Below, one piece after another: positions 4,180 to 51,300 of a stretch of 64,000 bases of DNA. This DNA is from Mesoplasma coleopterae (GTDB lineage: Bacteria; Bacillota_I; Bacilli_A; Mycoplasmatales; Mycoplasmataceae), in NCBI RefSeq assembly GCF_002804245.1, contig NZ_CP024968.1, forward strand, positions 558,001 to 622,000. The letters are read 5' to 3'. The notes under the pieces are model-generated. The model worked only from the letters and a program-made list of their open reading frames with translations, made no database searches and had not been told where the DNA came from. Position numbers and translations under genes: made by a program. Numbering within the stretch: the stretch's first letter is position 1; every line of letters starts with the position of its first letter.

Positions 4180-4220
4180 AAAATGAAAACACGCTTATTT
4201 AATAGCGTGTTTTCATTTTT
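4180..4220. terminator. Bidirectional terminator between typA and the PHP-ATPase operon
   Basis: Arms AAAATGAAAACACGC (4180-4194) and GCGTGTTTTCATTTT (4205-4219) form a 15-bp stem with a 10-nt loop. Flanking A-runs and T-runs make it usable from both strands. It lies after typA and 26 nt past the end of the convergent three-gene operon. Confidence 0.8.
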
Positions 4221-4245
4221 CAATTTTTTTAGGTTTCCTTGCATT

Positions 4246-4569
4246 TTATATTTTATATTCATCAATGAAGAATATAAAATATTTTTTTCCAAATTCATTA
4301 ATAAAAGAAATATGTAATTTTTCTTTTTCATCAAAATAAAATTCAATATCTTTTTCAGGGTTTGATAATTGAATTCTTTTTCAATCATTAATAAGAATGT
4401 TTAATTCATTTTTTGCTTCTGATTTAGAATTAAACAAGTTTAAATTTTGCGAATTAAAAATAGTGTTTTCATATAAAAATTCTTTTCTTATTTCATCTGT
4501 TATTTTTAAACTTATGTATGTTTTTTCTTTATCATTTAAGACATCTTTTATTTTTATAACATACTTCAT
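4246..4569 (-). CDS. Small protein, third gene of the PHP-ATPase operon
   Basis: 107 aa, unrecognised. It starts MKYVIKIKDVLNDKEKTY and ends FIFFIDEYKI. One TGA (Trp) is read near residue 63. No signal peptide or TM segment; the predicted pattern is alternating beta strands with one helix (SKSEAKNELNILIND), so it is probably a small soluble domain. It begins 1 nt after the stop of the preceding 117-aa gene, so the two must be co-translated from the PHP-ATPase transcript. High Lys, Asn and Ile and very AT-rich. The only clue to function is its place behind the large ATPase; a regulator, inhibitor or specificity subunit are all possible. Confidence 0.75.
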
Positions 4570-4570
4570 A

Positions 4571-4924
4571 TTAGTTATTTCCTTTTTCTATTCTATCAAA
4601 TTCACTTATATAAATATTTTTTGTTTCATTACAAAATTTTATAATTATGTCTTTTGCAATTCTATCCTCTGCAGAAATTTTTTCTTGTTTAATAAAATTG
4701 CAATCAATAAAGAAATCATGATTAAATTTACCATTTTCATTTAATGACTTTATTTCATTAATAATATCATAATTTTTACAATCTTCTTTAATCTTTATAA
4801 TTATTGCATTATATAGATCTACAAGATCATTTTCAGTAGGATTCATTATATCTAGTTTATATTCCGTTCCACTTATGAAAAAAGAAATTATGTGCATATT
4901 AAATTTTATTTTAACTTTGTTCAT
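4571..4924 (-). CDS. Small protein, second gene of the PHP-ATPase operon
   Basis: 117 aa, unrecognised. It begins MNKVKIKFNMHIISFF. The ATG at 4924 is chosen because it lies inside the end of the upstream ATPase gene (14-nt overlap, translational coupling). An earlier ATG at 4963 would lie deeper in that gene without benefit. The N-terminal part is strand-rich, followed by a helix with NDLVDLYNAIIIKIKED and an acidic/basic C-terminal half. No TM segment. The overlap with the ATPase gene and the 1-nt gap to the next gene make a strict three-gene unit, which suggests the three products act together. Function unknown. Confidence 0.75.
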   Translation of the reverse strand: MNKVKIKFNMHIISFFISGTEYKLDIMNPTENDLVDLYNAIIIKIKEDCKNYDIINEIKSLNENGKFNHDFFIDCNFIKQEKISAEDRIAKDIIIKFCNETKNIYISEFDRIEKGNN

Positions 4925-7265
4925 TATAATATTCCTCTCTAGAGTAAAACTCTTTTTCCCCACCTTCCATCATATCTAGTAATTCTGGTGCAGCTTTTAT
5001 TTTTACTTCAGTGTTATCTAAATCTCTTAAATAACCATTTTGTTTATTTCCAAAGTATGTTTTATAAATATTTTGATCTGGTTCATATTTTCTAACTATT
5101 ATATTTCTTGGCTGGGTATTAATTGCTAAATTTGCATTATGTGTAGCTATAAAAATAGGTTTGTTCCTAATGTCTAATTCAATTATTTTATCTAAAATTA
5201 TTTCATTTGTTGTTTTTGAATCTAAAAATACTTCTGGTTCGTCTAGGAAATAAGCTTCTCTTTCTTCTTCCAAATATGATGATATTGTTAATAATTTTCG
5301 CTGACCTGAAGATAATTGACCGGTAAGTATATTATTATTTATTTTAAAGTAAGTTTTAAAAACGTATAATTCTTTTTTTTCAATTGTTGGCTTTAATTTT
5401 AATAGCTCTTTTAAGGAGTCATTCATATGTTTATAAAAAAGATTAGAAAAAGAACTCGAATATATTTCATTGTATATTTTAGTTAGATATTCATTTATAC
5501 TTAGCGAGTTTCTTTTATCAGAAAAATTACTATTTGGAATTGCTTTATATCCTTTTGTATCATATAAATCATTTTTTAAAAACTCAATATTAATATAAAC
5601 ACTTTCGCTTCTGCTTAATCTACCTAATTTTTCTTTATATTCAAAAGTTGATGGAAGATCCAAAATTATTCGTAACTCATTTCTAATTCTTTCTTTTTCT
5701 GAATAATATTTTCTTAAATTAATAGCTGACGGATTTGTTTTTTCACCTTTATTTTTTTTAATTGCTGATTGAGCTGCTTTTCTAATTTCAGATAAAAATA
5801 AGCTTCGTTTTCTTATTGTTTGTTTACTTGTTATTTCAAAAAGAAGAGCATCATTAATATAATTGAAAATTTCATTCAAAGATTTGTTAAAATCTTTTAT
5901 ATATTTAAATTTTAAAAATTCCGGACTTTCTAAAACTTTTTTAAAATATTTTTCAGAGTTATTTTTTCAATCATTTAAATTAGAAATTTTTAAATTAATT
6001 TTATTTATTTCTTCATTAAAATTTTTTTCATTTTTCTCAATTTCTGCTTCTATTTCTTCATTAAAAGTTAAATTATTTCAACCATTAAAATTTTGTGAGC
6101 CTTCATTTTCATAATATTCTTTAATTTCAATTATTTTACTCAATATTTCATTGCCTTCAAATAATTTTTTATTTAACGTTTCATCTTCAACATATTTTGA
6201 TATTTCATGAAATTTTACTTCTTCTAAATTAAATTGATTTATTGCATTTTTTACATGAGATTCTTTTATTTCATTAAAATTTGTTTCCGGTTTTCCTCCA
6301 TAAAACATAGAAATATTAGTATTATTTAAATCATTATAGGCATTTAATGCAGCTTTAAGTAAAATTGATTTTCCTGTTCCATATTTTCCAGAAATAATAT
6401 TTATACCATCAACAAAGTTTAAATTAATATTATCTATAAACACTCCTTCATCTGTTTTTAAATTTAAGTCCAATTCAAAACTTTTCATAGGTTCTAAATT
6501 TTTAACAACTTTTTTACAAAAGTTTATATACTCCATTATATTGCAAAATTCCATATTTATATCGTATGATTCAACATTTTTATATTCAATATTAGAGGAA
6601 TCATGTGAATCAGAACCCACTGTATATGACAATTTATTAATTCTAAATATTTCTTGTGTTTTTTCATTATTTTTAAAAGAAGAATTTCCCAATTCAAATT
6701 TATAATAACGCCCTTTTTTCGAAAATATATTTTTTAAATTCTCTAAATTTTCATTAGTCATTATTTTTTTATTATTATTTTGTTTACTAGAAGTTGGTAA
6801 TAAACCAATTACAGAAATATCATATTTATCCAAAAATCATTCTAAATCATTTATTGTTAATCCCAAAAATGATTCTGCATCATGCCCATTTAAAATTTCA
6901 ACAATCATGTCAGAAAATTCTTTTGTTTTATTGCTATCTGCTATTATATTAAAATTAAATATATCGAATAACTTATTATTTTTTTCTTTATTATTATCAT
7001 TCAAATTAATCTCAATTGGATTTTCTTTTGGTATTTTTATATCTAATTCAACTCCTGGTAAAAATAATATCTCTTCAGGCTTATACATTTCCATTTTTCT
7101 AAAATGCTTTAAATCAAAGTAATTATGATTAGTAATACCTATAACTCTTACATTATTTTTTTTAGCATTACTAAAAAAAATAGAAAAGTCTTGTTCACCA
7201 AGATTTCTTTTTTTTGATTCACCTTTTTTTGTAGCAATTGTATGACAATGTAAGTCTATTTTCAT
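4911..7265 (-). CDS. PHP-domain / SMC-like ABC ATPase fusion protein
   Basis: 784 aa in one open frame (TGA = Trp at residues 143 and 396 among others). The N-terminal PHP metallo-hydrolase domain is complete: H6-x-H8 (DLHCHT), ITNHNYFD, PGVELD, and D219-S-H221 in GSDSHD. The SMC/RecF-like ATPase follows: Walker A G-K-Y-G-T-G-K-S at 293-300, then a long Lys/Glu-rich coiled-coil-like insertion (about 390-640). The ABC signature LSSGQ is at 651-655, Walker B FLDEPE at 673-678 and the H-loop ATHN at 707-710. Perfect SD AAGGAGG. PHP domains hydrolyse phosphoester bonds, and SMC-like ATPases clamp DNA or sense ends. Such fusions (TrlF-like, as I recall) are rare in reduced genomes and typical of accessory or defence loci. 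Biochemical role here is inferred. Confidence 0.85.
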
Positions 7266-7342
7266 AGGGCCTCCTTATTATGATTTGTAATTAAATATAT
7301 AAGAAAAATATGTTTAATCATCTTTTTAAATTAATTAGCTTT

Positions 7343-7867
7343 CTACTTCATAATTTTATAAGAACTCTTTTTTTCTTTCAATAAAAACATTAGATCAATA
7401 ATTTCAAAATAAAATGGTAAAAATTCACCAGTTATAATCATATTATTTATTTCTTGTTTTGTTGCTCATTTTACTTCTTCAACTTCTTCCTTTTGTAAAA
7501 CTAATTTTTTAATTTCTACTTCTTTTTTAATTAGATAAAAATCATCAAATCCTTCACTAAAATTAATCGTAAATGATGGTCTGATATTTGAAAAATCTAT
7601 TTCTAATCCTAACTCTTCTTTTGCTTCTCTTGCTGCTGTTGATTGGCTATTTTCACCAGTTGAAACAGAACCACTAACTGATGGTGTTCACATTCCAGTT
7701 CAATGCTTTCTTTCCTTAGAAACTTTTTGAATTAACATTTCTTCTTTATTATTAAAAATTCCAATAGTTATTTTTCTTCTATAAAAACCTTTTGGAGGTT
7801 TAGTCCCTCTTATCATTGTTTGATCAGTTTTATTACCTAATATGTCATATAAATCTAAAATTTCCAT
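7343..7867 (-). CDS. Nudix hydrolase
   Basis: 174 aa. The Nudix box fits G-x5-E-x7-REUxEExGU: GSVSTGE then REAKEELGLE. Upstream the protein has KPPKGFYRRKITIGIFN and RKHWTGMWTPSVSG, like the IDI/YfcD-type Nudix group acting on nucleotide or isoprenoid diphosphates. Substrate cannot be told from sequence. SD AAAGGGG precedes ATG at 7867. The gene starts 49 bp downstream of the convergently oriented end of a membrane-protein gene on the same strand, so it may share its transcript. Three Trp codons are TGA. Ends with TAG at 7343-7345; 77 nt then separate it from the PHP-ATPase start. Confidence 0.85.
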
Positions 7868-50246: not shown

Positions 50247-50253
50247 TTTTTAG

Positions 50254-50329
50254 TGGTGGTTGTGGACGGAATTGAACCGCCGACACGCAGAGCTTCAATC
50301 TGCTGCTCTACCAACTGAGCTACACAACC
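50254..50329 (-). tRNA. tRNA-Phe (anticodon GAA)
   Basis: 76 nt, acceptor GGTTGTG/CACAACC, discriminator A, encoded CCA; anticodon loop TTGAAGC. Last gene of the cluster. Confidence 0.97.
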
Positions 50330-50331
50330 GA

Positions 50332-50408
50332 TGGCGACCCCAACGGGACTCGAACCCGTGATCTCCTCCGTGACAGGGAGGCGCGATAACCAACTTCGCT
50401 ATGGGGCC
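50332..50408 (-). tRNA. tRNA-Asp (anticodon GTC)
   Basis: 77 nt, acceptor GGCCCCA/TGGGGTC, discriminator G, encoded CCA; anticodon loop CTGTCAC. Confidence 0.97.
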
Positions 50409-50416
50409 ATTAAAAA

Positions 50417-50492
<76 letters not shown>

Positions 50493-50499
50493 ATAAAAA

Positions 50500-50592
50500 T
50501 GGCGGAAGATGAGGGATTCGAACCCCCGCTCGGGTTTCCCCGACTCTCGGTTTTCAAGACCGATCCCTTCAGCCGGACTTGGGTAATCTTCC
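50500..50592 (-). tRNA. tRNA-Ser (anticodon TGA)
   Basis: 93 nt with a long variable arm; acceptor GGAAGAT/ATCTTCC, discriminator G, CCA; loop CTTGAAA. Confidence 0.97.
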
Positions 50593-50628
50593 ATGTAATA
50601 TTCAAGTTGCAACCATATTATTAGCTAG

Positions 50629-50705
50629 TGGTGGACCTTATTGGACTTGAACCAATGACCGTCCGGTTATGAGCCGGATGCTCTAACCAACTGAGCTAAA
50701 GGTCC
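50629..50705 (-). tRNA. tRNA-Ile (CAT anticodon, expected lysidine)
   Basis: 77 nt; acceptor GGACCTT/AAGGTCC, loop CTCATAA. The body GGACCTTTAGCTCAGTTGG matches the firmicute Ile2 type, and the neighbouring CAT tRNA at 50713 is the elongator Met type. The CAT anticodon would need TilS to read AUA. Confidence 0.85.
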
Positions 50706-50712
50706 TTAATTA

Positions 50713-50789
50713 TGGTAGCGGGGGCGAGATTTGAACTCGCGACCTTTCGGGTATGAACCGAACGCTCTAACCAACTGAGCTACCCCGCC
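50713..50789 (-). tRNA. Elongator tRNA-Met (anticodon CAT)
   Basis: 77 nt; acceptor GGCGGGG/CCCCGCT-type with discriminator A and CCA; loop TTCATAC as in firmicute elongator Met. Confidence 0.9.
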
Positions 50790-50798
50790 GTAAAAAAA

Positions 50799-50874
50799 TG
50801 GTGGACCCTATCGGGATCGAACCGACGACCCCCTGCGTGCAAGGCAGGTGCTCTCCCAGCTGAGCTAAGGGCCC
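50799..50874 (-). tRNA. tRNA-Ala (anticodon TGC)
   Basis: 76 nt; acceptor GGGCCCT/AGGGTCC with a G-U pair, CCA; loop CTTGCAC. Confidence 0.97.
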
Positions 50875-50889
50875 ACAAAAAAAATATAA

Positions 50890-50966
50890 TGGTCGGGAAG
50901 ACAGGATTCGAACCTGCGACCCTTCGGTCCCAAACCGAATGCTCTACCAAGCTGAGCCACTTCCCG
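50890..50966 (-). tRNA. tRNA-Pro (anticodon TGG)
   Basis: 77 nt; acceptor CGGGAAG/CTTCCCG, discriminator A, CCA; loop TTTGGGA. Confidence 0.97.
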
Positions 50967-51012
50967 ATACGACAATGTTATTACTTTTTCAATAATAACA
51001 TTAAAATTAAAT

Positions 51013-51089
51013 TGGTGCGCCCGGAGGGACTCGAACCCCCAACCTTTTGATCCGTAGTCAAACGATCTATCCAATTGATCTACGGGCGC
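51013..51089 (-). tRNA. tRNA-Arg (anticodon ACG)
   Basis: 77 nt; acceptor GCGCCCG/CGGGCGC, discriminator A, CCA; loop CTACGGA. First gene of the nine-tRNA transcript. Confidence 0.97.
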
Positions 51090-51130
51090 ATTTGTTATTA
51101 TTGGTACACCTTAATTTAAGGGACTTTTTT

Positions 51131-51159
51131 ATTATAAATAAGTTTTGTAAAAAAAACAA
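51131..51159 (-). promoter_or_regulatory. Promoter of the nine-tRNA cluster
   Basis: TTGTTT (51154-51159), exact 17-bp spacer, perfect TATAAT (51131-51136), 41 nt before tRNA-Arg. Confidence 0.65.
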
Positions 51160-51186
51160 TAGATTTTTTATAAAATTAAATTTTGC

Positions 51187-51217
51187 AAAAAAAATCGTTC
51201 AGCTGTCTGAACGATTG
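51187..51217 (-). terminator. Terminator of tRNA-Cys
   Basis: AATCGTTCAG/CTGAACGATT 10-bp stem, 4-nt loop, TTTTTT on the minus strand. Confidence 0.85.
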
Positions 51218-51225
51218 AATTTATT

Positions 51226-51300
51226 TGGAGGCGGCAATCGGATTCGAACCGATGATCAGGGTGTTGCAGACCCATGCCTTAGCCACTTGGCTATGCCGCC
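51226..51300 (-). tRNA. tRNA-Cys (anticodon GCA)
   Basis: 75 nt; acceptor GGCGGCA/TGCCGCC, discriminator T, CCA; loop CTGCAAC with a T-T mismatch at the top of the anticodon stem. Confidence 0.95.

Follow-up and report, generated by a model that had tools for sequence, protein, structure and literature searches.

A PDC-M49-like PHP-ATPase with a nested small partner is a candidate defence system in Mesoplasma coleopterae

What is a fused PHP phosphoesterase-ATPase doing among housekeeping genes, outside any defence island, on the 800,407-bp chromosome of Mesoplasma coleopterae? Analysis of the 64,000-nt stretch that surrounds it (the window) points to a horizontally exchanged, accessory, two-gene PDC-M49-like PHP-ABC ATPase system accompanied by an orphan open reading frame (ORF), most likely acting in defence against phages or mobile DNA (probability roughly 0.65).

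The operon comprises three ORFs, read under genetic code 4 (Table 1), and the coordinates, strand, lengths and junctions given in a preliminary description of this DNA proved exact. The start codon of P0003 is nested 14 nt inside the P0001 gene (overlap 4911-4924), P0003 and P0002 are separated by 1 nt (position 4570), and Shine-Dalgarno sequences are present at all three starts (AAGGAGG, GAGAGGA and AAAAGGAAA for P0001, P0003 and P0002, respectively). Sigma-70-like sites are not in excess over shuffles (39 versus 34.2), and therefore no promoter is claimed. The terminator that the block was said to own exists as a stem at its boundary with typA, but it is bidirectional, with convergent genes on either side. 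Greater AT-richness than the neighbours was borne out: the 3.17-kb segment has 21.1% GC versus a mean of 27.3% for stretches of the same length, only 0.3% of which are as low, making it essentially the lowest-GC stretch of the window. P0002, at 17% GC, is the lowest among 56 ORFs. Elsewhere in the window, GC-rich ORF calls at 50253-51119 are spurious and stem from a minus-strand cluster of ten tRNA genes (window 50254-51300).

Table 1 Features of the PHP-ATPase operon and of the corresponding junction in sister genomes (window positions unless a locus is named).
Feature	Position	Strand	Basis
P0001, 784 aa: PHP phosphoesterase domain and SMC/RecN/AriA-like ABC ATPase with helical insertion	4911..7265	-	Code 4 ORF, profile, structure model
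PHP domain, residues 1-237	6555..7265	-	Fold match, ligand table
Walker A, residues 293-300, GKYGTGKS	6366..6389	-	Motif reading
ABC signature LSSGQ, residues 651-655	5301..5315	-	Motif reading
Walker B strand to catalytic D675-E676	5238..5255	-	Motif reading
P0003, 117 aa, family partner protein	4571..4924	-	Held-out profile test; partner ORF position in relatives
P0002, 107 aa, orphan ORF	4246..4569	-	No family, no convincing homologue
Swapped segment, 3169 bp	4188..7356	.	blastn breakpoints versus G158
Bidirectional intrinsic terminator-like 16-bp stem, typA/operon boundary	4180..4219	.	Convergent genes either side
ASCH-domain genes, typA/NUDIX junction, sister Mesoplasma	L036:3720-4172, L038:3788-4240

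P0001 carries the Walker A motif (G293-S300), signature, Walker B motif and H-loop (H709) of SMC/ABC-type ATPases, all as previously read from the sequence, and their key residues are invariant among close relatives. In an AlphaFold model of P0001, a PHP barrel (residues 1-237) precedes an ABC head (259-784) that is interrupted by helices, in keeping with the insertion expected there. Structure comparison aligned residues 259-784 to ABC heads, and Foldseek matches of the model include RecN, SMC and Rad50 heads and PARIS AriA.

Profile searches place P0001 in a wider family. A profile built from four relatives outside the Mollicutes matches it over its full length (E = 1e-52). Canonical relatives match the PADLOC model PDC-M49A over their full length (E = 1e-247 and 2e-199), as does the Mollicutes copy from G206 (E = 3.5e-21), and the small partners of the canonical relatives match PDC-M49B. 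P0001 itself matches PDC-M49A at residues 2-78 only (E = 1.4e-9), and P0003 has no match to PADLOC models, including PDC-M49B, at E = 10. Because a small gene occupies the partner position but does not match PDC-M49B, the system is termed PDC-M49-like and not PDC-M49 proper. Domain order, length, a C-terminal EGG...R...Y motif and a nested small downstream partner are common to both, whereas the partial PDC-M49A match, the missing PDC-M49B match, the loss of one set of metal ligands (the beta ligands, below) and the extra orphan ORF set the window system apart. PARIS (AriA/AriB), Septu (PtuA/PtuB) and OLD/Gabija (GajA) also pair an SMC/ABC-like ATPase with a hydrolase effector, mostly with a second subunit, and resemble P0001 in the ATPase part by HMM and fold; their effector is TOPRIM or HNH where the window class has a fused PHP barrel, and the partner is unrelated. 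The tree places the main Mollicutes group beside Bacilli, plasmid and virus-derived members and gives the window protein a long branch whose exact placement is unsure. The system ranks as a divergent variant, of Mollicutes type, within the PDC-M49-like candidate class, a known kind. The kinship with defence systems proposed in the preliminary description accordingly stands as resemblance to PDC-M49, itself a candidate, with relatives on plasmids, on virus-derived contigs and beside restriction-modification (R-M) genes. The literature searched contained no mention of PDC-M49 and nothing specific on PHP-ATPase defence.

The conserved unit is two genes. An ORF of ~85-125 aa directly follows the ATPase gene in 29/29 full-length copies (TrlF-like outgroup left out, L117 counted, L070 and L097 taken as one), a set that spans Mollicutes, Bacilli, Prevotella, plasmids and virus-derived contigs. 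The ORF starts shortly before the ATPase gene ends, and the overlaps of intact copies all equal 2 mod 3, giving a single relative frame; the decayed copy L111 is an exception to the nested arrangement. The partner Shine-Dalgarno sequence is embedded in the ATPase codons for the conserved C-terminal R...Y stretch. This same-frame nested start is direct evidence of old translational coupling, and P0003, with its 14-nt overlap, shares the frame. A partner profile built without P0003 detects it at E = 2.7e-4 among 459 sequences (best shuffled sequence, 0.28) and scores P0002 at E = 39, so P0003 is a divergent family partner and P0002 an orphan. P0002 has no Pfam, NCBIfam or PADLOC family, and 317 genomes of the order yield no convincing homologue, its weak matches there being scattered and near chance. 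It was also considered as a partner, an antitoxin or a P0003 paralogue and rejected, having neither a family nor any similarity. The three-protein partnership proposed earlier is therefore not supported: of the two small proteins thought to be tied to the ATPase, P0003 is a conserved nested partner and P0002 is not. Absence of the small genes from other ATPase-bearing genomes, which had been named as evidence against the proposal, applies to P0002 only, a P0003-type partner being present in all full-length copies.

Across subfamilies, the partners are equated by their position, size and coupling. Comparing profiles of the partner subgroups gave no link (hhalign probability 0.3% for the P0003 group versus the PDC-M49B type), and only positional equivalence is claimed. 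The P0003 model is a low-confidence three-strand meander with helices (pLDDT 67, 13 sequences), and a PDB fold search with it returned nothing under E = 0.9, so no fold is claimed. At the C terminus of P0001 (window 4911-4994), the tail motif reads EGG....R..Y. We note that the same tail occurs in the TrlF-like proteins of L049 and L056, which are without a nested partner. The motif is thus a feature of the protein itself, beyond any embedded ribosome-binding site.

The block is accessory to the genome. DNA identity to the sister genome G158 ends at window position 4187 and restarts at 7357 (blastn), and between these points G158 has 458 bp with an ASCH-domain gene (PF04266, E = 1.5e-10) versus 3169 bp in the window. 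G159 has the same arrangement as G158; G160 (Mesoplasma grammopterae) has an ASCH-like gene downstream of the NUDIX gene; and G161 and G162 have other content again at the typA/NUDIX junction, which may be a small site of variable gene content across Mesoplasma. Because sister genomes carry a different stem after typA, the terminator stem of the window appears to have been imported with the swapped segment. Relatives of P0001 occur in 11/320 genomes of the order and 2/7 of the genus, a patchiness that agrees with the accessory character supposed in the preliminary description and departs from the universal core synteny that it had set as grounds for refutation. The PDC-M49A model finds matches in 12/392 genomes of the phylum sample and the broader family profile in 19/395 of the class sample; a phage collection gave no match to P0001. 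A distant PHP-ATPase copy (~25-29% identity) lies at another locus in G160, near a contig end (L020:2277-4436).

This distribution bears on whether P0001 is instead a RecN/SbcC-like helper of DNA repair or recombination, exchanged among Mollicutes. Repair-type heads (RecN, SMC, Rad50) among the fold matches would suit such a role, but the family is rare and patchy, has copies on plasmids and virus-derived contigs, is often decayed in Mollicutes and, in the window, was swapped against an ASCH gene, which together make a repair function improbable. The decayed Mollicutes copies are an IS-interrupted one (L022), two split ones (L110 and L111) and a remnant (L029). The first, from Spiroplasma poulsonii (L022:6604-10153), has an IS3-like insertion within the ATPase gene, and a 71-aa partner-like ORF persists downstream.

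Several relatives lie near known or predicted defence genes. A Photobacterium plasmid copy has a BsuBI/PstI type II system nearby; type I R-M genes lie near L055 (by inspection) and L107 (E = 2e-295), the latter also neighbouring an AriA/PtuA-like ATPase; a type II methyltransferase neighbours L102; a type IIG enzyme and PDC-S06 neighbour L105; PDC-S06 neighbours L109; a Schlafen-type (SLFN) helicase neighbours L112; and AbiD lies beside a terminase-like gene at L117. Broken or partial ATPase copies also occur on Enterococcus and Staphylococcus plasmids, and those examined retain the partner. The copy of Candidatus Tyloplasma litorale (L115:13485-17307) has HsdS/HsdM-like type I R-M genes and parA/parB in its vicinity, as judged from inspected translations. 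The defence reading is supported by the R-M, AbiD and PDC-S06 neighbours, the plasmids and virus-derived contigs, the patchiness and the swap; it is weakened by the solitary place of the window block, by PDC-M49 being itself a prediction, by the lack of a match between P0003 and PDC-M49B, by the lost beta ligands and by the kinship with TrlF (both below).

The best named family for P0001 is NCBIfam TrlF (NF045780; E = 1.1e-19), although its 70.7 bits are far from the curated cut-off of 350 bits. TrlF likewise has an N-terminal PHP domain and a C-terminal ABC-type ATPase, and TrlF-like outgroup proteins share the EGG...R...Y motif. TrlF was studied in a Photorhabdus operon behind temperature restriction, not phage defence, and no trlF mutations were reported there (PMC7554251). 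Since the TRL operon limits high-temperature growth (PMC7554251), the PHP-ATPase could be a conditional toxin curbed by its partner, in a stress- or toxin-type growth-arrest module (TrlF/TRL- or toxin-antitoxin-like) whose main role is growth restriction and not phage defence. A small overlapping partner suits regulation of this kind. The TRL partners TrlG (AlbA_2/HATPase) and TrlR are, however, unlike the ~100-aa nested partner of the window class; neither of the TrlF-like outgroup proteins sampled has a nested partner; and the neighbours of relatives are defence genes. We consider a dedicated growth-arrest role rather unlikely, and note that abortive-infection defence would look identical, so the two readings overlap.

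The PHP domain lacks part of the expected metal site. The modelled domain (1-237) matches the PHP domain of DNA Pol III alpha (Z = 13.3, 3.9 Å over 202) and RNase AM (Z = 12.7, 3.7 Å over 192), and a search of the genome with PF02811 (PHP) did not detect P0001. In RNase AM, Mn-alpha is bound by His13, Glu72 and Asp255, Mn-beta by Glu72, His83 and His198, and Mn-gamma by Asp20, His45 and His257 (PMC9410882). Ligand columns were assigned partly via HMM alignments to Vibrio RNase AM (PDB 9etk) and YcdX, and the remainder by motif order. The window PHP keeps H6, H8, H47, E73, D219 and H221. The alpha ligands HxH, E and D are thus present (H6, H8, E73 and D219); the gamma site has H47 and H221, and E16 may replace Asp20. 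The two ligands private to the beta metal are lost, with N and T at the His83 and His198 equivalents, so that the PHP site earlier called complete has its HxH, NH, E and DxH motifs but neither beta-metal histidine. RNase AM (YciV)/Cv1693 shares the PHP barrel, the alpha ligands and the His45 and His257 equivalents with P0001, and differs in having an intact three-metal site and no ATPase.

A broken beta-ligand pair is common to all Mollicutes copies examined. HxH and the His45, Glu72 and Asp255 equivalents are invariant in 32 sequences, whereas 18/18 non-Mollicutes copies retain the whole His83/His198 pair, against 0/14 Mollicutes copies (Fisher value 2e-9, descriptive only because the sequences are not independent). 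Three Mollicutes copies retain one of the pair, and the replacements are often linked (Q with D; N with S, N or T). As one Mollicutes copy (G184) falls in a different clade of the tree, the beta-ligand change probably arose more than once. A general loss of PHP ligands in the organism was ruled out: PolC of the same genome keeps HxH, DH, GLE, the VHV His and SDAH, and the loss is therefore particular to the PHP-ATPase family. The missing ligands argue against ordinary PHP catalysis, so the chemistry has either changed (two-metal) or been reduced to a structural or binding role; the Mollicutes PHP may use just the alpha and gamma metals, have a different substrate or serve for binding only. Tentatively, and with some doubt, Mollicutes could have repeatedly re-engineered the PHP domain for a different metal set or substrate, or into an ATP-gated binding module, yielding a distinct candidate phage-defence variant. 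The same loss, the long branch of the window protein and the interrupted or broken copies in other Mollicutes would also fit a decaying, non-functional remnant, a dead PHP domain with an orphan ORF. Against this, the 784-aa frame is intact with all ATPase motifs and the alpha ligands, as are the Shine-Dalgarno sites and the coupling, and we regard a remnant as very improbable.

For the preferred defence reading, we infer a trigger, substrate and outcome by analogy, building on the observed architecture and coupling. With ATP bound, the ABC heads would form a dimer and detect an invader signal, either a DNA structure or a phage protein, like AriA/PtuA/RecN-like ATPases. The signal would release or position the N-terminal PHP barrel, the ABC part acting as a sensor or clamp that gates the phosphoesterase, as in PARIS, Septu and OLD/Gabija. 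The barrel would then hydrolyse a phosphodiester or phosphoester in nucleic-acid ends, a small RNA or a nucleotide, and so halt infection or growth. The partner of ~100 aa, whose start overlaps the ATPase gene, would be an obligate small subunit, probably structural or regulatory.

These analyses extend a candidate PHP-ATPase immune system to near-minimal genomes, with a conserved unit of two genes, not three. They reach copies that PADLOC models miss in part, the Mollicutes partners scanned having no PDC-M49B match. The ASCH swap points to a small locus that may vary between closely related Mesoplasma species, and the Mollicutes copies, with one metal site lost and the rest kept, are natural mutants for asking whether PHP is the killing enzyme.
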